Source of the DNA: Arthrobacter sp. 35W | GTDB taxonomy: Bacteria; Actinomycetota; Actinomycetes; Actinomycetales; Micrococcaceae | Assembly (NCBI RefSeq): GCF_000482545.1 | Contig: NZ_KI519454.1 | Span: 1,772,954-1,836,953, forward strand | DNA length: 64,000 bases | Direction of reading: 5' to 3' | In this document: positions 55,492-63,464 of the stretch, one piece after another | Layout of the letters: each line of letters begins with the position of its first letter | How positions within the stretch are numbered: the first letter of the stretch is position 1 | The notes under the pieces: generated by a model | Told to the model about the DNA's origin: nothing | The model's input: only the letters and a program-made list of their open reading frames with translations | Database searches by the model: none | Made by a program: the position numbers and the translations under genes

Positions 55492-55502
55492 GCCCCACCC
55501 GG

Positions 55503-55566
55503 TGGTTGAGCGGAGCCGAAACCCGGTGCGGCAATCATGTCCCCGGGTCTCGGCTTCGCTCGACCA
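55503..55566. repeat. REP-like inverted repeat (TGGTTGAGCG family)
   Basis: A 24-nt arm starting TGGTTGAGCGGAGCC and its complement ending GGCTTCGCTCGACCA match at 21 of 24 positions. The same family recurs at 63274-63336. It lies between the peptidase gene and the response-regulator gene. It can form a long hairpin and may end transcription. Confidence 0.7.
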
Positions 55567-55599
55567 GCGGGGCCACAGCTTCCGCCAATCCGGTGCACC

Positions 55600-55611: not shown

Positions 55612-56358
55612 ATGACCGACGCGCCCCGGAATTCATTCACGGACCTTCCCCCGCTGGCCCACCCCGATGGAACGCCCATCCGGGCGCTGGTGGTCGACGA
55701 CGAGCCGAGCCTCACCGAACTCATCAGCATGGGTCTGCGGCTGGCGGGCTGGGACGTGGCCACGGCCGCCGACGGCGCCGAGGGCGTGCGCACCGCCCGT
55801 GCCTTCCGCCCGGACGTGCTGGTCCTGGATGTCATGATGCCCGGCATGGACGGCATCGAAGCCCTGGGCAAGATCAGGGAGTTCTCCCCCGGCGTGCCGG
55901 CGCTGTTCCTCACCGCCCGCGACGCCGTCCAGGACCGCATCGCCGGCCTGGCCTCGGGCGGCGACGACTACGTCACGAAACCATTCAGCGTCGAAGAGCT
56001 GCTGCTGCGCCTGCACCGCCTGGTGCAGCGCTCCGGCGTTGCCGCCATGGACAGTGCCGAGCTGGTGGTGGGCGATCTGGTGCTGAACCTCGACACCCGG
56101 GAAGTGACGCGCGGCGGGACGGACATCGACCTGACGGCGACCCAGTGGGAACTGCTGCGCTACCTGATGGAGAATGCCCGGCGGGTGGTAAGCCGGCCGC
56201 AGATCCTGGACCAGGTGTGGCACTACGATTTCAACGGCCAGGCCAACATCGTTGAGCTGTACATCTCGTACCTGCGCAAGAAGATCGACGTCGGACGGAC
56301 GCCCATGATCCACACCGTCCGGGGCGTGGGGTACGTGCTTAAGCCGGCCGATTCGTGA
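55612..56358 (+). CDS. OmpR/PhoB-family response regulator
   Basis: A 248-residue two-component regulator. The receiver domain (~24-140) has the acidic pair D29-D30, the phosphorylation site D73 in LVLDVMMPGMDG, the switch Thr in LFLTARD and the Lys in YVTKPFS. The C-terminal winged helix (~155-245) ends VWHYDFNGQANIVELYISYLRKKID and VRGVGYVLK. It resembles the TcrA/TrcR-type actinobacterial regulators. The stop overlaps the kinase start (GTGA). It probably controls itself and the following surface-polymer genes. Confidence 0.94.
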   Translation: MTDAPRNSFTDLPPLAHPDGTPIRALVVDDEPSLTELISMGLRLAGWDVATAADGAEGVRTARAFRPDVLVLDVMMPGMDGIEALGKIREFSPGVPALFLTARDAVQDRIAGLASGGDDYVTKPFSVEELLLRLHRLVQRSGVAAMDSAELVVGDLVLNLDTREVTRGGTDIDLTATQWELLRYLMENARRVVSRPQILDQVWHYDFNGQANIVELYISYLRKKIDVGRTPMIHTVRGVGYVLKPADS

Positions 56359-57830
56359 CGGCAGCCAAACGGCGCAGGGCCCACCGGCTGCGCACCAAAC
56401 TCATCGTGGCCATGCTGGCGCTGCTGGCCGCCATCTGCGCCAGCGTGGGGTTCGTTGGCCATCTGGCCATGAACGACTACCTCACCAAACAGATCGACGA
56501 CGGCCTGCACCAGGCCGCCTCCCGCGCGTTTGGGCCGCAGGGGCCGCCGAACGGCAGTGGGCCCTCCAACCCGGGCAGCCAGCCCAACCCCCTGGACACG
56601 CGCGGCCAACGCCCCGGAACCCTGAATGCACTCTTTTCCGGTGACGTCGCGAAGTCCTCCGCCGTCGTCCAAACGGACGGCAGCGCCGTCGCCCTTTCAG
56701 CCGAGGATCTGGCGAAGATCGCCCAGACCGCCCCCACGGGGCAGGCCACCGAGCTCACCCTCTCCAGCGGCACCTACCGGCTCTCCGCCTCCACGGCATC
56801 GACGCCCACCGGGGAAAAGCTGGTCACCGGCCTGTCCACGGCGGACCGGGACTCCACCCTGAACTCGCTGAATCTGGTCACCACCATCGTGTCCGTGGCA
56901 GGGCTGGCCATCATCGGCCTTGTTGGCACTGTCATCGTCAGGCGCTCTCTGCGTCCCCTGGATGAACTCTCCGATGTCGCCACCACTGTCGCAAGCCTTC
57001 CGCTGGAATCCGGCGAGGCAGCCATCGATGTGCGCATCCCGCCGCTTGCCGCCGAGCCGGGCACCGAGGTGGGCGAGGTGGGCGTGGCCTTCAACAACAT
57101 GCTCGACCATCTGACCCGATCGTTTGCCGCACGCCATGCCAGCGAGATGCAGGTGCGGCAATTTGTCGCCGATGCCAGCCATGAATTGCGCACGCCGCTG
57201 GCCTCCATCCGCGGCTACACCGAACTCATCCTGCTCAGCGAACGTCTGAGCCCGGCCGGAACAGTTGCCCTGCGCCGGGTGGACAGCGAGTCCAAGCGCA
57301 TGTCCGCCCTCGTGGAGGATTTGATGCTGCTGGCCCGGCTCGATGAAGGCCAGCGCGACGAACCCAGCGATGTGGACCTGTCCGATCTGCTCATGGAAAC
57401 GGTGCAGGACAGCAAGATCGCCGCCCAGGACCACCACTGGTCCCTGGAACTCCCCCAGGAACCTGTGCTGGTCAACGCGGTGGAAACCGAAGTCCGGCAG
57501 GTGCTGATCAATCTGCTCTCCAATGCCCACAAGCACACGGCACCCGGAACCCACATCCGGGTCAATCTGACGACGACGGCGGGCACGGCAACGCTGGACA
57601 TCGAGGACAGCGGGGAGGGCATCGCCGGGGAATTCCTGGACCAGGTGTTCCTGCGGTTCAGCCGGCAGGATGCCTCGCGGTCGGCGGTCCAGGGCAAAGG
57701 CACCAACAGTTCGGGCCTGGGGCTGGCGATCGTCAAGGCCCTGGTGGAGGCGAATAATGGCACCGTTGCGGTTGCCAGTTCCCCCGGAATGACACGATTC
57801 ACGGTGCGGCTGCCCACACTCCAGGGGTAG
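56355..57830 (+). CDS. Sensor histidine kinase
   Basis: A 491-residue membrane kinase. TM1 is at ~15-38 and TM2 at ~175-196, with an extracytoplasmic sensor region of about 135 residues between them that is rich in Pro, Gly and Asn near its start. A HAMP domain follows, then the H-box FVADASHELRTPLASIRGYTE with phospho-His276, and the ATPase domain with N-box NLLSNAHKHT, G1 DSGEGIAGEF and G2 GLGLAIVKALVEANNG. It starts with GTG inside the regulator stop. The signal is unknown, though an envelope cue fits the context. Confidence 0.94.
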   Translation: MTAAKRRRAHRLRTKLIVAMLALLAAICASVGFVGHLAMNDYLTKQIDDGLHQAASRAFGPQGPPNGSGPSNPGSQPNPLDTRGQRPGTLNALFSGDVAKSSAVVQTDGSAVALSAEDLAKIAQTAPTGQATELTLSSGTYRLSASTASTPTGEKLVTGLSTADRDSTLNSLNLVTTIVSVAGLAIIGLVGTVIVRRSLRPLDELSDVATTVASLPLESGEAAIDVRIPPLAAEPGTEVGEVGVAFNNMLDHLTRSFAARHASEMQVRQFVADASHELRTPLASIRGYTELILLSERLSPAGTVALRRVDSESKRMSALVEDLMLLARLDEGQRDEPSDVDLSDLLMETVQDSKIAAQDHHWSLELPQEPVLVNAVETEVRQVLINLLSNAHKHTAPGTHIRVNLTTTAGTATLDIEDSGEGIAGEFLDQVFLRFSRQDASRSAVQGKGTNSSGLGLAIVKALVEANNGTVAVASSPGMTRFTVRLPTLQG

Positions 57831-57911
57831 CCCCGGGGCCGCGGGACTCCTCACAGCTTCAGCACAAGCTCGACCTGCACGGGGCACAGAGCGGGTCTTT
57901 ACAAAAGAAGT

Positions 57912-58934
57912 ATGACTACTTCACACCCGCCCCTGAATGAAAAGCCCGCCAATCCCCCGCCCAGTGACAGTGCCGCCAAGAAGCCCACGCGCAGGGTGGT
58001 CCTCGGCGGAGCCCTGGCCATGGTGCTCTCGGCCGGCGGAGCAGCCGCCTGGGCCCTGGACCGCTTCGTGGTTGAGCACGTCGAAATCTCCGACGTCAGC
58101 GCCTACGAGGCCAGCCAGTCTGCCACCGCGGCCACAACCAGCACCGGAACCACGGAATCCACCGCCGCCACGGTTCCCACAGTTCTGACGGACACCGGCT
58201 TCAGTTCCGGGGACGCCAACATCGCCATCAGCACGGCAACCACCGGCAGCGGCTCGAATCTGGCCACCTACTTCGTCGCCGACGTGCAGCTGGCGGCAGG
58301 CACAGCACTGAGATCCGCCTTTGCCCAGGACAGCTTCGGGGAGAACATCACCGAAAACACCTCGGCCATCGCCGCGGACAATGGCGCCGTCTTCGCCATC
58401 AACGGCGACTACTACGGCTTCCGGGACACCGGCATCGTGGTCCGCAATGGGGTTGCCTACCGTGACAAGGGCGCCCGCGAGGGCCTGGCCTTCTACCGGG
58501 ACGGCACCGCCACGATGTACGACGAAACCACGACGTCGGCCGCCGAGCTCGTTGCCGACGGCGTCTGGAACACCCTCTCCTTCGGTCCATCGCTGATCGA
58601 GGGCGGCGCCGTCAAGGCCGGCATCGACAGTGTGGAGGTCGACACCAACATCGGCAACCACTCCATCCAGGGGCTCCAGCCGCGCACTGCGGTGGGCGTT
58701 CTGGGGACCAACCACCTGGTGTTCGTGGTGGTGGACGGCCGGTCCGAGGGGTACAGCGCGGGCGCCACCATGAGCGGTCTGGCGCAGATCATGCTGGATC
58801 TGGGCGCCACCACCGCCTACAACGTTGACGGCGGCGGATCCTCCACCATGTACTTCAACGGCGCCTTGGTCAACAACCCCCTCGGCAAGAACCAGGAACG
58901 CGGCACCTCCGACATCCTCTACGTGGCCGGGTAG
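57912..58934 (+). CDS. Phosphodiester glycosidase family (NAGPA-like) exported protein
   Basis: A 340-residue protein with an N-terminal signal anchor at ~27-48, preceded by TRR, a possible Tat-type signal. A low-complexity Thr/Ser/Ala linker (~65-95) leads to the catalytic domain with AINGDYYGFRDTGIVVRNG, RTAVGVLGTNHLVFVVVDGR and NVDGGGSSTMYFNG, the hallmarks of the family that removes GlcNAc-1-phosphodiester groups. Bacterial members occur in exopolysaccharide clusters and act outside the membrane on phosphodiester-linked sugars. It begins 81 nt after the kinase stop, with a polymer-assembly gene 7 nt downstream. Confidence 0.87.
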   Translation: MTTSHPPLNEKPANPPPSDSAAKKPTRRVVLGGALAMVLSAGGAAAWALDRFVVEHVEISDVSAYEASQSATAATTSTGTTESTAATVPTVLTDTGFSSGDANIAISTATTGSGSNLATYFVADVQLAAGTALRSAFAQDSFGENITENTSAIAADNGAVFAINGDYYGFRDTGIVVRNGVAYRDKGAREGLAFYRDGTATMYDETTTSAAELVADGVWNTLSFGPSLIEGGAVKAGIDSVEVDTNIGNHSIQGLQPRTAVGVLGTNHLVFVVVDGRSEGYSAGATMSGLAQIMLDLGATTAYNVDGGGSSTMYFNGALVNNPLGKNQERGTSDILYVAG

Positions 58935-58941
58935 GGCCGCC

Positions 58942-60039
58942 ATGATCATCCTGATCCCGGCATACGAACCCGACGAAAAGCTCCTTGACCTGGTTGCCGC
59001 CCTGGATGAAGCCGGCGGTGCCGTCCACGTCGTCGTCGTCAATGACGGCAGCGGACCCGGCTACGAACAGCTCTTCGCCCAGGCGCGGCTGCTGGGCGCC
59101 AGGGTGATCGGCTATCCCAACAACCACGGCAAGGGGCAGGCCCTCAAGACAGGCTTCGGCTACATAGCCGCGCATTTCCCCGGCCAGGACGTGGTCTGTG
59201 CGGACAGCGATGGCCAACATGGCGTCCCCGACATCCTTCGTGTGGCCGCGGCCGTGCGGTCGACCCAGGCCATGGTGCTGGGTGAACGCCGGTTCGACGG
59301 CGAGGTTCCGCTGCGCAGCAGGATCGGCAACGGCGCCACCAGACTCTTCTTCGGGCTGGCCACCGGGGCCCGGCTCCACGACACGCAGACCGGCCTGCGC
59401 GGCTACCCGGCCCGGCTGCTCCCCTGGCTGCAATCCATCCACGGGGACCGGTACGAGTATGAGCTCAACTTGCTGCTGGAGGCCCGGCAGCAGGGAATCC
59501 CGATGGAGAGCATCACCATTGCCACCATCTACCTCCAGCACAATGAGTCATCGCATTTCCGGCCGCTGCAGGATTCCCTGCGCATCTACGCACCCCTGGT
59601 GAAGTTCTCCCTGTCATCCCTAGGTGGATTCGCCGTGGACCTGGCGCTGTTCCTGGTGCTCAACGCCGCCACCGGATCCCTGCTGCTGGCGGTGGCCGGC
59701 GCCCGCGCCGTAAGCGCCGGGGTGAACTTTGCGATCAACCGCACCCTCGTGTTTCCGGAGGGAAGGACGACGCCGTTGGGACGCAGCGCTGTCCGGTACC
59801 TGGCCCTCGTGCTGCTCCTGATGGGAGCCAACTATTGCCTGCTCTTTGCCCTGACGGAGGCCGGACTGCCGGCACTTCCCGCCAAACTCCTCACCGAAAT
59901 TGGACTGTTCCTGGCCAGTTTCGCCCTGCAGAAGCGCTTCCTGTTCCGGCGGATCCGGCCGCCGGCGGCAGAAAAGCAGCACTCACAAGGCAGGCTGCCC
60001 GCTGGCACAGATTCGGCACAGACTCGCTTGGAAATCTAG
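58942..60039 (+). CDS. GT2 glycosyltransferase fused to GtrA-like membrane domain
   Basis: A 365-residue fusion. Residues ~1-215 are a GT-A fold transferase of the dolichyl-phosphate/undecaprenyl-phosphate sugar type (ILIPAYEPDEKLLDLVAAL, VVVNDGSG, NHGKGQALKTGF, CADSDGQHGVPDI with the metal-binding DxD-like DSDG). Residues ~220-345 are a four-helix GtrA domain (FSLSSLGGFAVDLALFLVLNAATG, NFAINRTLVFPEG), which flips or accepts the lipid-linked sugar. The fused form suggests synthesis and membrane transfer of an Und-P-sugar for decoration of a surface polymer. The ATG follows the previous stop by 7 nt. Confidence 0.9.
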   Translation: MIILIPAYEPDEKLLDLVAALDEAGGAVHVVVVNDGSGPGYEQLFAQARLLGARVIGYPNNHGKGQALKTGFGYIAAHFPGQDVVCADSDGQHGVPDILRVAAAVRSTQAMVLGERRFDGEVPLRSRIGNGATRLFFGLATGARLHDTQTGLRGYPARLLPWLQSIHGDRYEYELNLLLEARQQGIPMESITIATIYLQHNESSHFRPLQDSLRIYAPLVKFSLSSLGGFAVDLALFLVLNAATGSLLLAVAGARAVSAGVNFAINRTLVFPEGRTTPLGRSAVRYLALVLLLMGANYCLLFALTEAGLPALPAKLLTEIGLFLASFALQKRFLFRRIRPPAAEKQHSQGRLPAGTDSAQTRLEI

Positions 60040-60075
60040 ACATAGACGCTTTCCCAGACCCTATTGGAGACCTTC

Positions 60076-60720
60076 ATGAACACGCTCATCTTCCTGGCCG
60101 CAGACCTCGCGGCGATCTCGCTGCTCACCTTCGGTTTGTACCTGCGCCGGCACCGGCGCCGCGATCTGGTGGTGTCCTACCTCGGCATGAACGTCGGCGT
60201 GCTCGCCGTGGCGACGGCGCTCTCCGGTTCTGCGGCCGGCGTCGGACTTGGTTTGGGCCTGTTCGGCGTCCTGTCGATCATCCGCCTCCGCTCCACGGAG
60301 CTGGCCCAGCACGAGGTGGCGTACTACTTCTCTGCCCTTGCCCTGGGTCTCATCTCCGGCCTGGGCGTTGAACCGATGTGGGTGACGCTGTCGCTCATGG
60401 CCCTGATCCTGGCTGTCATGTTCGTTGGCGACCACCCCCGCGTGCTGCCGGCCTACCGCCACCAGACCGTCATCCTGGACCAGGCGATTGCCGACCCGGC
60501 GCTGTTGAAGGCGCGCCTTGAGGAGGTGCTCGGAGCCACCGTGCACACGGCCATCGTCCAGGAACTGGACCTGGTCAACGACAAGACCACTGTGGATGTC
60601 CGGTTCGAAACCAGGACCAAGGCACCCGTTCCGCCCGAGGCCCGCGGACCGCTGCACGAGCAGCTGGCCGCCCGGCTTCCCGGGGGCGAGGTCCGCTACG
60701 ACCACGTGGGCATCTCATGA
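60076..60720 (+). CDS. DUF4956 family membrane protein
   Basis: A 214-residue protein with four membrane helices in the first 125 residues (IFLAADLAAISLLTFGLYL, VSYLGMNVGVLAVATALSG, GLGLGLFGVLSIIRLRSTE, WVTLSLMALILAVMFVGD). A soluble C-terminal ferredoxin-like domain follows. The RLRSTELAQHEVAYYF segment is the family mark. DUF4956 proteins are usually encoded beside VTC polyphosphate polymerase domains, as here (ATGA overlap with the next gene). It is probably the membrane partner of that enzyme. GGAGA lies 6 nt before the ATG at 60076. Confidence 0.88.
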   Translation: MNTLIFLAADLAAISLLTFGLYLRRHRRRDLVVSYLGMNVGVLAVATALSGSAAGVGLGLGLFGVLSIIRLRSTELAQHEVAYYFSALALGLISGLGVEPMWVTLSLMALILAVMFVGDHPRVLPAYRHQTVILDQAIADPALLKARLEEVLGATVHTAIVQELDLVNDKTTVDVRFETRTKAPVPPEARGPLHEQLAARLPGGEVRYDHVGIS

Positions 60721-61523
60721 GCCCGCTCGGCCGGCACACGGCGCTCGGTCCGTGGCTGTCGCAGCTGCCGCCCCTCTCGCTGGAGGCGCTCAACGCTGCG
60801 GCGGCCCTGCAGACCCGGGTCGACAGGAAGTACCTCGTTCCGCTGGAGAAGCTCAGCGGAATCCTCGACAGCTTTGCCGGGGAGGTCCACATCCTTCAGG
60901 AGGCCGGCCTCCGGCTGTTTGCCTACGACTCGGTGTACTTCGACACCCCCGCCCTCGACAGCTACTTTCTGGCCGCCTTTGGCCGGCGGCGGCGCTACAA
61001 GATCCGCACCCGCAGCTATCTGGACAGCGGTGTGGCCTTCCTGGAGGTCAAGACGGAAGGCTCCCGGAGCGCGACAGTCAAGGAACGCATTCCCTACGAC
61101 CCGTCCGACAGATCCACCATCACGCCGGAAGGCGCCGAATACATCGCCCAAACGCTGCAGGCAACGGCCTTGCTGCCGCCGCCGGGTCCGCTGGCTCCGG
61201 TGCTGGAAACCAGCTACGGACGGACCACCCTGTACCTGCCCGGCTCGAACAGCCGGGCAACCGTCGACTTCAACGTCACCTGGACCACGCCCCGCGGCGA
61301 ACGCCTGGTCCTAGGCGACGCCGTCGTTCTCGAAACAAAATCCGGTTCAACGACCGGCCAGCTCGACAAGCACCTGTGGCGCCACGGCGTCAGGCCCTCC
61401 CGCATCTCCAAATTCGCCACCGGCATGGCAGCCCTGACGCCGGGACTGCCCGCCAACCGCTGGCACCAAACACTTATGCGCAGCATGCCCCGACCCTCTA
61501 CCACCCCAAGGACGACCTCATGA
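60717..61523 (+). CDS. VTC-domain protein, probable polyphosphate polymerase
   Basis: A 268-residue protein with the tunnel-shaped CYTH-like VTC domain. Basic residues expected to hold ATP and the growing chain are visible: RVDRKYLVPLEKL, FGRRRRYKIRTRSYL, FLEVKTEGSRSATVKERI and ETKSGSTTGQLDKHLWRHG. The metal-binding Glu residues lie in LEVKTE and VLETKSG. In yeast Vtc4 this domain makes polyphosphate from ATP and passes it through a membrane channel. No membrane helix is present, so the DUF4956 protein likely supplies it. It overlaps both neighbours by ATGA. Confidence 0.87.
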   Translation: MSPLGRHTALGPWLSQLPPLSLEALNAAAALQTRVDRKYLVPLEKLSGILDSFAGEVHILQEAGLRLFAYDSVYFDTPALDSYFLAAFGRRRRYKIRTRSYLDSGVAFLEVKTEGSRSATVKERIPYDPSDRSTITPEGAEYIAQTLQATALLPPPGPLAPVLETSYGRTTLYLPGSNSRATVDFNVTWTTPRGERLVLGDAVVLETKSGSTTGQLDKHLWRHGVRPSRISKFATGMAALTPGLPANRWHQTLMRSMPRPSTTPRTTS

Positions 61524-63067
61524 AGAAATTCACCCGCCCCCAGCTCATCACCTCCGTGGCGGCCCTGGCCCTGGCCACAGCCCTGGCCGGCTGCTCAACA
61601 CAGACTTCCAGCCCGGCGTCGGACAGCAGCAGCATGGCCGCAGCGTCCACCGCCGCCACCTCGGGTCCGACCACGGAAGCCATCGACGCCGACCTGGCCG
61701 CGTCCATCGCCGCCACCACCCACTTCGACCAGGACGATCTCAGCTGGGATGCGGCAAAGGAGACAGCCGTCGCCCTGGCCGACAATGCCACCACGGCGTC
61801 AGGGACCAACGCCGGCAGTGTCACCGTCAGCGGCAACACGGTGACCATCACCGCCGGCGGAACCTACCGGCTGTCAGGAGACCTCGACAATGGGACGGTG
61901 GTGGTGGCCGCCGGCGAGGAGGACGTGGTCAGGATTGTTCTGGACAACGCAAGCATCTCCAGCCCGACGGGCGCGGCGGTGGACATCCAGAGCGCCAACG
62001 AAGTCCTGATCTACCTGGCGGACGGCAGCACCAACGACGTCAGCGACGCCAGCAGCTATGCGGACACGGCAACGGACGCAGCCAATGCCGCCATCTACTC
62101 GCTGGCCGATCTCACGATTGCCGGCCCGGGCACCCTGAGCGTCAACGGAAACTACCAGGACGGCATCGTCTCCAAGGACGGTCTGGTCCTGGCCTCCGCC
62201 ACCGTGAGCGTCGATGCCGTGGACGATGGCATCAAGGGCAAGGACTACACGGCGCTGCTGGACGGGATCTACACCGTGGCGGCCGGCGGCGACGGCGTGA
62301 AGTCCACCAATGACACCGATGCCGATAGGGGCTGGCTGCTGGTGGCCGGCGGCACGCTGGACGTCGCCGCCGGCGACGACGGCATCAAGGCAGCCACCAC
62401 GCTCACGGTGAGCGGCGGGACGGCCACGGTGTCCGAGTCCGAGGAGGGCCTGGAGGCCCCGCACATCGTGGTCTCCGGCGGAACCGTCACGGTGAATTCC
62501 AACGACGACGGCATCAATGCCGCGGGCGGATCCAATTCCACGACCGGGACCACGGGTGGCGGCATGGGCGGGGGCATGGGCGGCGGCGATGCCGTGGGCG
62601 ACTACTCAGTGGACATCTCCGGGGGCAGCGTGACCATCAATGCCGAGGGCGACGGCCTCGATTCCAACGGCAACGCCAGCATCAGCGGCGGAACAGTGGT
62701 GGTCAACGGGCCCACCAACGACGGCAACGGCGCTCTGGACGTCAACGGCGAACTGGTGGTCACCGGTGGAACCGTTGCCGCCGCAGGCAGTGCTGGAATG
62801 GCCGTAACCCCCAGTGCGTCCTCCAGCCAGTCCGGCCTGCAATTCACGTTCACCTCCGCAGTACCGGCGGGGACGGCCCTTCAGATCGTTGACTCCGCTG
62901 GAAACGTGGTGTCGACATTCGTCACCTCAAAGACGACGGCCTCGCTGGTCTTCTCCAGTGCGGACATCACGGCCGCCGGGCAGTACACCGTCACTGCGGC
63001 AGGTGCCGAGCTCGTGACCGTGACGGCCGGCGAATACACCGAAGGCCGCATGCCCGGCCGGATGTAG
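61520..63067 (+). CDS. Carbohydrate-binding lipoprotein with repetitive beta-solenoid (Cthe_2159-like)
   Basis: A 515-residue lipoprotein: signal peptide with lipobox ALAGC, a Ser/Thr/Ala-rich linker to ~residue 55, then a right-handed beta-solenoid made of short turns such as VSGGT, DDGIKG, GDGVKS, GDDGIKA and NDDGIN. The Asp-Asp-Gly turns are likely calcium sites. A Gly/Met-rich loop (GGGMGGGMGGG) interrupts it at ~355. The fold is that of the Cthe_2159 carbohydrate-binding family. Repeated association of this family with VTC and DUF4956 proteins suggests that it holds or shapes the exported polymer on the cell surface. A strong terminator follows. Confidence 0.87.
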   Translation: MKKFTRPQLITSVAALALATALAGCSTQTSSPASDSSSMAAASTAATSGPTTEAIDADLAASIAATTHFDQDDLSWDAAKETAVALADNATTASGTNAGSVTVSGNTVTITAGGTYRLSGDLDNGTVVVAAGEEDVVRIVLDNASISSPTGAAVDIQSANEVLIYLADGSTNDVSDASSYADTATDAANAAIYSLADLTIAGPGTLSVNGNYQDGIVSKDGLVLASATVSVDAVDDGIKGKDYTALLDGIYTVAAGGDGVKSTNDTDADRGWLLVAGGTLDVAAGDDGIKAATTLTVSGGTATVSESEEGLEAPHIVVSGGTVTVNSNDDGINAAGGSNSTTGTTGGGMGGGMGGGDAVGDYSVDISGGSVTINAEGDGLDSNGNASISGGTVVVNGPTNDGNGALDVNGELVVTGGTVAAAGSAGMAVTPSASSSQSGLQFTFTSAVPAGTALQIVDSAGNVVSTFVTSKTTASLVFSSADITAAGQYTVTAAGAELVTVTAGEYTEGRMPGRM

Positions 63068-63086
63068 CACCCCACACCAGAAAGTT

Positions 63087-63125
63087 CCGCCCCACCTGCC
63101 GAAACAGGTGGGGCGGGGCTTTTTG
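63087..63125 (+). terminator. Terminator ending the surface-polymer operon
   Basis: CCGCCCCACCTG pairs with CAGGTGGGGCGG around CCGAAA and runs into GGCTTTTTG, 20 nt after the stop at 63067. Confidence 0.93.
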
Positions 63126-63151: not shown

Positions 63152-63250
63152 GCCGAAACCAGGTGATACGGACGCATCCCCCAGCCGGCGACGTCGAACC
63201 CCCTCCAGGACGCAGTACGAAACGCGTCCTCGAAGGGGAACTGCGTCATG
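63152..63250. repeat. 99-nt repeat, copy A
   Basis: Starts GCCGAAACCAGGTGA and ends GAACTGCGTCATG. The second copy at 63327-63425 is the same length and differs at only a few positions. No gene likeness; the minus-strand frame reading MTQFPFED is a repeat artefact. Confidence 0.85.
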
Positions 63251-63273
63251 GCTGAAGTTGGGTGGCCCCGAGT

Positions 63274-63336
63274 AGGTCTCGACAAGCTCGACCACCGAGC
63301 GCGGTGGTTGAGCGAAGCGGAGCGGAGCCGAAACCA
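63274..63336. repeat. REP-like inverted repeat (TGGTTGAGCG family)
   Basis: GGTCTCGACAAGCTCGACCA faces TGGTTGAGCGAAGCGGAG-type sequence around CCGAGCGCGG. It belongs to the same family as 55503-55566 and sits between the two 99-nt repeat copies. Confidence 0.75.
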
Positions 63337-63425
63337 GGTGAGGCGAACGCGTCCCCCAGCCGGCGACGTCGAACCCCCTCCAGGACGCAGTACGAGACGC
63401 ATCCTCGAAGGGGAACTGCGTCATG
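63327..63425. repeat. 99-nt repeat, copy B
   Basis: Direct copy of 63152-63250, 175 nt apart start to start. The 397-nt gap between the lipoprotein gene and the LytR_C gene contains only the terminator and these repeats. Confidence 0.85.
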
Positions 63426-63464
63426 ACTGCAGGTGCGCGTCACCGAGGTCAACCAGCGACCAGG

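Follow-up and report, generated by a model that had tools for sequence, protein, structure and literature searches.

In a 64,000-nucleotide stretch of the genome of Arthrobacter sp. 35W (hereafter the window), seven genes make up a cell-envelope operon that is real and conserved; at its center stands a polyphosphate-polymerase domain of the yeast type, the VTC domain. To judge from sequence, a kinase and a putative PhoP-family regulator lie upstream of two envelope units, each headed by a predicted PhoP-type site. We tentatively favor, at just short of an even chance, a reading in which the locus is a PhoP-type two-component envelope regulon with polyphosphate synthesis and export by VTC and the membrane protein DUF4956, organized as two co-regulated units. 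The genome that holds the window (G000) comprises 4.66 Mb in 4 contigs, and the features of the locus, numbered from the first letter of the window, are as follows.

55612-56358, plus strand: response regulator (RR) of the OmpR/PhoB class (PF00072 and PF00486)
56355-57830, plus strand: sensor histidine kinase (HK) with HAMP, HisKA and HATPase domains (Pfam)
57851-57868, plus strand: predicted PhoP-type operator 1, TCACAGC-N4-GCACAAG, in the gap between HK and NAGPA (motif score 11/14)
57912-58934, plus strand: NAGPA, a predicted membrane-anchored phosphodiester glycosidase (PF09992, E 2.7e-36)
58942-60039, plus strand: GT2-GtrA, a GT2 glycosyltransferase with a GtrA/DPMS membrane domain (PF00535 and PF04138)
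60006-60021, plus strand: predicted PhoP-type operator 2, CACAG-N6-CACAG, 5' of DUF4956 (motif score 10/14)
60076-60720 (alternative start TTG at 60064), plus strand: DUF4956 membrane protein (PF16316, E 3.9e-58)
60717-61523, plus strand: VTC (triphosphate-tunnel) domain protein, candidate polyphosphate polymerase (PF09359)
61520-63067, plus strand: Cthe_2159-family beta-helix lipoprotein (PF14262, E 1.8e-75)
63078-63125, plus strand: terminator-like hairpin and T run 3' of the last gene

A preliminary description, made from the letters of the window, had reported this arrangement, and each of its elements is present: all seven genes lie on the plus strand with Pfam matches to the named families above gathering cut-offs, the widest intergenic gap is 81 nt (HK to NAGPA), three 4-nt overlaps join neighboring genes (GTGA at 56355, ATGA at 60717 and ATGA at 61520), and a hairpin follows the last gene; terminator-like matches as a class are not enriched (6 found against a shuffle mean of 6.0). 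The same seven genes recur in the same order in 5 of the 22 same-genus genomes searched (G002, G007, G012, G013 and G015), which places the layout beyond chance and bears out the conserved neighborhood on which that description had relied.

The core of the operon reaches well past the genus. Among 78 related genomes, a count that includes the genome of the window, 26 have VTC and all 26 of these also carry DUF4956 (present in one further genome), while Cthe_2159 occurs in 16 and CotH, a kinase family that will concern us below, in 13. VTC and DUF4956 are found in exactly the same 20 genomes of a 198-genome phylum sample, so the co-occurrence stated in the preliminary description is confirmed at both depths. 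We also surveyed 108 DUF4956 loci (the window, 27 regions picked by VTC matches and 80 by DUF4956 similarity), counting as nearby any gene no more than 6 kb from DUF4956. Of these, 106 have VTC nearby, the exceptions being L105, where the contig edge comes soon after DUF4956, and L134, where none was found. Cthe_2159 is nearby in 53 loci and CotH in 43, with 9 loci having both, 44 Cthe_2159 only, 34 CotH only and 21 neither. Since this company differs among loci, DUF4956-VTC is the constant unit and the outside partner varies, and the near-alternative choice beside the same core suggests that CotH and Cthe_2159 do related jobs outside the membrane. NAGPA and GT2 are both close to DUF4956 in 34 loci and a two-component gene in 36; GT2 stands near DUF4956 without NAGPA in a single locus (L114).

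The evidence for regulation begins with the regulator itself. By phmmer against the PDB its best match is Mycobacterium tuberculosis PhoP (3r0j/9ji3, E 8e-72), followed by PrrA (1.7e-58) and MtrA (2.4e-42). Compared with the DNA contacts given in PMC4832192, four of six recognition-helix residues are identical (N212, E215, Y217 and Y220), two are substituted (V213I and S216L), and R237 is kept. Judged by similarity, the regulator is a putative member of the PhoP family. Because of its resemblance to M. tuberculosis PhoP, nothing points to phosphate as the signal.

According to PMC4832192, the M. tuberculosis PhoP operator pairs two 7-mers of sequence TCACAGC, strictly 4 bp apart. Operator 1 (TCACAGCttcaGCACAAG, 57851-57868) is the sole exact TCACAGN6CACAAG in the 4.66-Mb genome, and operator 2 (CACAGattcggCACAG, 60006-60021) lies partly inside the end of GT2. 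The 81-nt gap between HK and NAGPA is occupied by a conserved element that resembles an operator and a promoter, with an A+T-rich -10-like element, seen by eye, directly 5' of the NAGPA ATG. A promoter scan with the sigma-70 consensus gave one match against 0.9 expected. When the published motif was scored over the 120-130 nt upstream of each gene with a threshold of at least 11/14, it was reached at NAGPA (20/36), DUF4956 (35/108), CotH (4/15, Arthrobacter-type CotH only) and RR (7/35), compared with 0/32 at HK, 0/38 at GT2, 1/107 at VTC and 2/56 at Cthe_2159, all operon-internal genes, and with 0.565% of 62,982 background windows. A CAYAG-N6-CAYA pattern likewise occurs in 30 of 35 NAGPA upstream regions versus 0.31% of 94,472 background windows. 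CotH genes follow their position: a 12/14 site stands 5' of three that are placed upstream of NAGPA, away from the Cthe_2159 end (L062, L067 and L068), while CotH directly behind Cthe_2159 scores 8-9 and CotH behind VTC 7-10.

The 4-bp spacing of the half-sites was compared with six others. At 36 Micrococcaceae DUF4956 loci, a spacer of 4 gives 28/36 at the same threshold, versus 1, 0, 0, 3, 1 and 0 for spacers of 1, 2, 3, 5, 6 and 7; at 32 Micrococcaceae NAGPA upstream regions, the spacer of 4 gives 17/32 and the same other spacers 6, 0, 1, 1, 0 and 3. The remaining 60 loci show 7/60 at a spacer of 4 versus 0-1/60 at others, and a second kind of locus, represented by 12 loci of which all but L031 have another two-component system beside DUF4956-VTC, shows 0/12 at every spacer. 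A PhoP-type direct repeat with a 4-bp spacer is therefore present at the predicted promoters. Since the sites stand at NAGPA and DUF4956 and are nearly absent at the internal genes, two or more PhoP-type promoters probably serve the operon, and its seven genes are probably not read as one simple transcript. The two-component control proposed in the preliminary description is made likely by these sites, and the pattern suggests that a PhoP-family regulator controls the operon. Beyond the operon, the window genome holds one exact site and 7 further one-mismatch sites versus 10 in a reversed control; because one-mismatch sites are no commoner than in that control, there is no evidence of more operator targets.

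Two side observations concern regulators of this type. A 50%-identical response regulator is encoded elsewhere in the genome (G000:C2:1903105-1903797), and one one-mismatch PhoP-type site (1903850-1903867, same strand) lies about 50 nt 5' of its matched part, which puts the site close to or at the start of the gene, possibly reflecting autoregulation or chance. The genus also contains the second kind of locus, HK-RR-DUF4956-VTC, with NAGPA, GT2, Cthe_2159 and CotH not nearby; by eye, L032, L033, L034, L039, L040 and, in part, L036 carry ATGAGAG-CTCTCAT and then CTCTCAT upstream of DUF4956, an element that is probably another regulator's site.

The same promoter evidence can be read in another way, which we consider possible though somewhat improbable: NAGPA and GT2-GtrA would trim or build a glycan, DUF4956-VTC-Cthe_2159 would have a separate role, and their adjacency would reflect co-regulation by one regulator only. 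The separate PhoP-type sites 5' of NAGPA and DUF4956 speak for it, as do the divergent placement of the NAGPA-GT2 pair, or its position behind Cthe_2159, in L046, L047, L120 and L126 and the absence of the pair within 6 kb in 74 of the 108 DUF4956 loci. It fits less well with the 34 loci that do keep the pair within 6 kb of DUF4956, some of which lie outside the family and are rearranged.

A single VTC sequence gave chance matches only against the PDB by phmmer, so that a profile was needed; the profile detects yeast Vtc4 (3g3q, E 1.8e-6) in a match that spans two thirds of the domain from its start. In an alignment of 28 sequences, K38, R93, K95, R97, R99, E110, K112, K122, R169, R180, E206, K208 and K232 are invariant, in keeping with the retention of basic and Glu tunnel residues on which the preliminary description had staked its reading; the alignment to Vtc4 spans profile positions 19-179 only, with E206, K208 and K232 outside it. 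The predicted model (pLDDT 89.8) forms a triphosphate-tunnel beta-barrel, and its best Foldseek match is 3g3r (E 1.3e-13, TM 0.60), the first 13 matches all being eukaryotic VTC chains. Tunnel phosphatases carry a strand-1 signature E-x-E-x-K. For AtTTM3, PMC4641920 names Glu-2 and Glu-4. Strand 1 reads R-x-D-x-K here versus R-x-T-x-K in Vtc4, with R34 kept but also D36, so that the strand-1 patch is basic rather than acidic and is accompanied by the conserved basic and Glu residues. Together, residues and predicted fold favor a polymerase-type tunnel, synthesis itself being unproven by them.

An unlikely alternative is that VTC hydrolyzes polyphosphate or nucleotides, or is some other tunnel enzyme, with an intracellular substrate, and that DUF4956 is a mere anchor with no export. 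The fold does cover tripolyphosphatases, thiamine triphosphatase and adenylate cyclases (PMC4641920), and PPK1, also encoded in the window genome, can already supply polyphosphate. However, chains of those enzymes rank below VTC in Foldseek, where the leading matches are the eukaryotic VTC chains, the acidic E-x-E-x-K signature is not kept, and the partner proteins that neighbor the core are mostly predicted to be exported. In one VTC-bearing locus, L163 (G173), the VTC match contains an in-frame TAG and the DUF4956 match an in-frame TGA, which may represent decay, sequencing error or another code.

Compared with the yeast VTC complex (Vtc4; PDB 3g3q/3g3r and 8i6v), the locus shares the tunnel domain, the invariant basic and Glu residues and a membrane partner; it differs in that the VTC protein has no SPX domain by Pfam and no hydrophobic segment of its own, and in that its partner is DUF4956. 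That protein has four hydrophobic segments; in its stretch G-x-G-x-G-L-F-G-V-L-S-I-I-R-L-R-S, every named position is conserved in 99 or more of 104 sequences. Its AlphaFold model (pLDDT 71, pTM 0.50) has helices in residues 2-119 followed by a small beta-alpha-beta-beta domain, and a fold search against the PDB returned nothing below E 0.1. We considered a relationship to MgtC, which has a similar layout of helices and then a small alpha-beta domain, and rejected it (hhalign probability 0.8%, E 0.067, with five MgtC sequences only). In L030:10101-11507, DUF4956 closes a 468-residue frame whose first 276 residues match no other Pfam family; this may be a fusion or simply an over-long frame.

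Among the remaining proteins, HK has two hydrophobic segments (residues 16-34 and 169-187). NAGPA has an N-terminal hydrophobic segment (residues 29-47) and PDB relatives 6ozd, 6u11, 6pkg (NAGPA) and 3ohg. GT2-GtrA resembles dolichol-phosphate mannose synthase 5mlz (E 3.9e-4) in having a GT2 and a GtrA-type membrane domain in one chain, a weak similarity, and is a predicted polyprenyl-phosphate sugar synthase. The Cthe_2159 lipoprotein has a lipobox-like ALAGC in its translation and aligns over residues 93-307 with 4peu/4phb (E 2.9e-30), from which it differs by greater length, a lipoprotein-type N-terminus, a GGMGGGMGGG insert and a C-terminal extension.

CotH (PF08757) has no match anywhere in the window genome and hence fell outside the preliminary description's view. 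In all five same-genus relatives with the seven-gene order, a CotH-kinase gene is the next gene downstream of the operon (identified by Pfam in L050 and by HMM in the other four, with a whole-genome CotH search agreeing in all five), and the L050 protein has a lipobox-like LAGC close to its N-terminus and no PDB match by phmmer. CotH is absent within 6 kb in 24 of the 33 loci that have NAGPA, GT2 and Cthe_2159 near DUF4956. Genomes with CotH mostly carry VTC: this holds for 15 of 16 in the phylum sample (Fisher p 1.9e-17) and, among relatives, for 11 of 13 (p 4.9e-5). Six loci from Microbispora, Saccharothrix, Micromonospora, Plantactinospora and Streptomyces were tested for the identity of the large gene that follows VTC; in each it encodes a CotH with a chitobiase-type domain, accompanied by a cellulose-binding domain in 4 of the 6. 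In the distant family f40, none of the four VTC genomes gave a CotH match; there the core has Cthe_2159 as a neighbor in L173 and L174, and L172 and L173 have a histidine kinase beside it. A hydrophobic N-terminal stretch is present in 51 of 69 CotH open reading frames (controls: 5/107 VTC and 3/35 RR), and many of the remaining 18 look, by eye, like over-long frames. The idea that CotH is secreted only where VTC exists was dropped, since the G029 CotH has a signal-like N-terminus in a genome without VTC. In one phylum lineage, L158 and L184 each encode, beside DUF4956-VTC, a protein of about 1,240 residues with two CotH-domain matches and a hydrophobic N-terminus.

ATP is scarce outside cells, and it is conceivable, if quite unlikely, that the core feeds extracytoplasmic phosphorylation with polyphosphate as donor for secreted CotH, the window genome having lost CotH and its operon being partly purposeless: the company CotH keeps with VTC genomes, its proximity to DUF4956 in 43 loci and its hydrophobic N-termini fit, but CotH is missing from the neighborhood in 65 of the 108 loci and from the whole genome in 15 of 26 VTC-bearing relatives, three CotH genomes (G003, G029 and G231) lack VTC, the G029 CotH looking secreted, and Cthe_2159 without CotH is commoner than the reverse (44 loci versus 34).

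Under the favored reading of a two-unit, PhoP-type envelope regulon, the first unit would be NAGPA and GT2-GtrA, and the second DUF4956-VTC-Cthe_2159, joined by CotH in relatives. The phosphorylated regulator would bind both sites and activate both units. At the inner membrane face, VTC, anchored to DUF4956, would convert phosphate from ATP into polyphosphate, and the chain would pass through or into DUF4956, as the yeast VTC complex passes it into the vacuole; outside, the Cthe_2159 lipoprotein, or a secreted CotH kinase in other lineages, would handle the exported product. Under the same control, GT2-GtrA would make a polyprenyl-phosphate sugar and NAGPA would cleave or transfer the sugar outside, altering a surface glycan; we pair the two as donor and cleavage enzymes because the NAGPA family is named for sugar phosphodiesters and its gene stays beside GT2. 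Judged by these sequences, polyphosphate synthesis and export by VTC-DUF4956 is plausible. Linkage of polyphosphate to the glycan, which the preliminary description had proposed, is conjecture: no evidence for such a link was found, and a covalent link is outside our proposal.

Several points weigh against the favored reading. Operator 2 scores 10/14, a level reached by 3.8% of background windows, and no PhoP-type site precedes the regulator gene of the operon itself (best score 9/14). The sites may in fact be bound by a 73%-identical regulator paralogue encoded elsewhere in the genome, 15 of 34 NAGPA and GT2 loci showed neither a kinase nor a regulator gene within 6 kb, and the compared loci are related by descent. 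VTC is dispensable for ordinary polyphosphate because the genome has PPK1, and its fold, as noted, also includes hydrolases and cyclases. A channel role for DUF4956 is one we infer, since the protein has no detectable fold relative and its model is mediocre. The core can do without CotH and Cthe_2159, because 21 of 108 loci have neither nearby, and we found no report of activity for a bacterial VTC-DUF4956 pair in the literature searched. A bolder version, which we think highly improbable, makes polyphosphate, passed across the membrane by VTC-DUF4956, an extracytoplasmic phosphate currency in places that lack ATP, a donor for secreted CotH and a charged ligand for Cthe_2159, with the Arthrobacter PhoP-type system running the synthase, the surface partners and the polyprenyl-phosphate-sugar/phosphodiester-glycosidase pair as one envelope regulon.

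The preliminary description had presented the complete set as a candidate new system. For the core this does not hold, because PMC7112168 already describes cotH, a polyphosphate polymerase gene and DUF4956, with DUF4832, as accessories to Pel operons of Gram-positive bacteria, and PMC2879425 places VTC and CotH genes in one Clostridium perfringens locus. The full seven-gene combination and its proposed PhoP control did not appear in the literature searched, which covered few subscription papers; DUF4956-VTC-CotH is a known gene set, and what is new is the PhoP-type regulation. As in the Pel accessory set, DUF4956 and a VTC-type gene stand together near envelope genes, with a CotH partner in Arthrobacter relatives; unlike it, the locus has NAGPA, GT2-GtrA, Cthe_2159 and a PhoP-type two-component system, and no pel genes were among the neighbor proteins scanned by Pfam, no search being aimed at them. 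The window shares with the CotH-VTC-DUF4956 module the adjacency of DUF4956 and VTC, but lacks CotH. Like the M. tuberculosis PhoP regulon (PMC4832192), the locus has a PhoP-family regulator and two TCACAGC-like 7-mers with a 4-bp spacer; here the sites lie 5' of VTC/DUF4956, NAGPA and some CotH genes, and GCACAG often takes the place of TCACAG in the half-sites.

By Pfam, the operon is flanked upstream by an M13 peptidase gene and downstream by a LytR_C-domain gene on the opposite strand. Just past its terminator, 63152-63272 and 63327-63447 are 121-nt direct repeats (89% identical), and words resembling them are seen by eye near 55500-55580, upstream of the regulator. An Rfam scan of the window at gathering threshold gave no match.

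VTC domains occur in many bacteria, yet the literature searched contained no functional study of a bacterial VTC. Given the regulator, its two predicted sites and the constant set of partners, it becomes testable in a harmless soil bacterium whether VTC-DUF4956 makes and exports polyphosphate and which surface partner uses the product. Confirmation of PhoP-family control would link polyphosphate to one of the major envelope regulators of actinobacteria.

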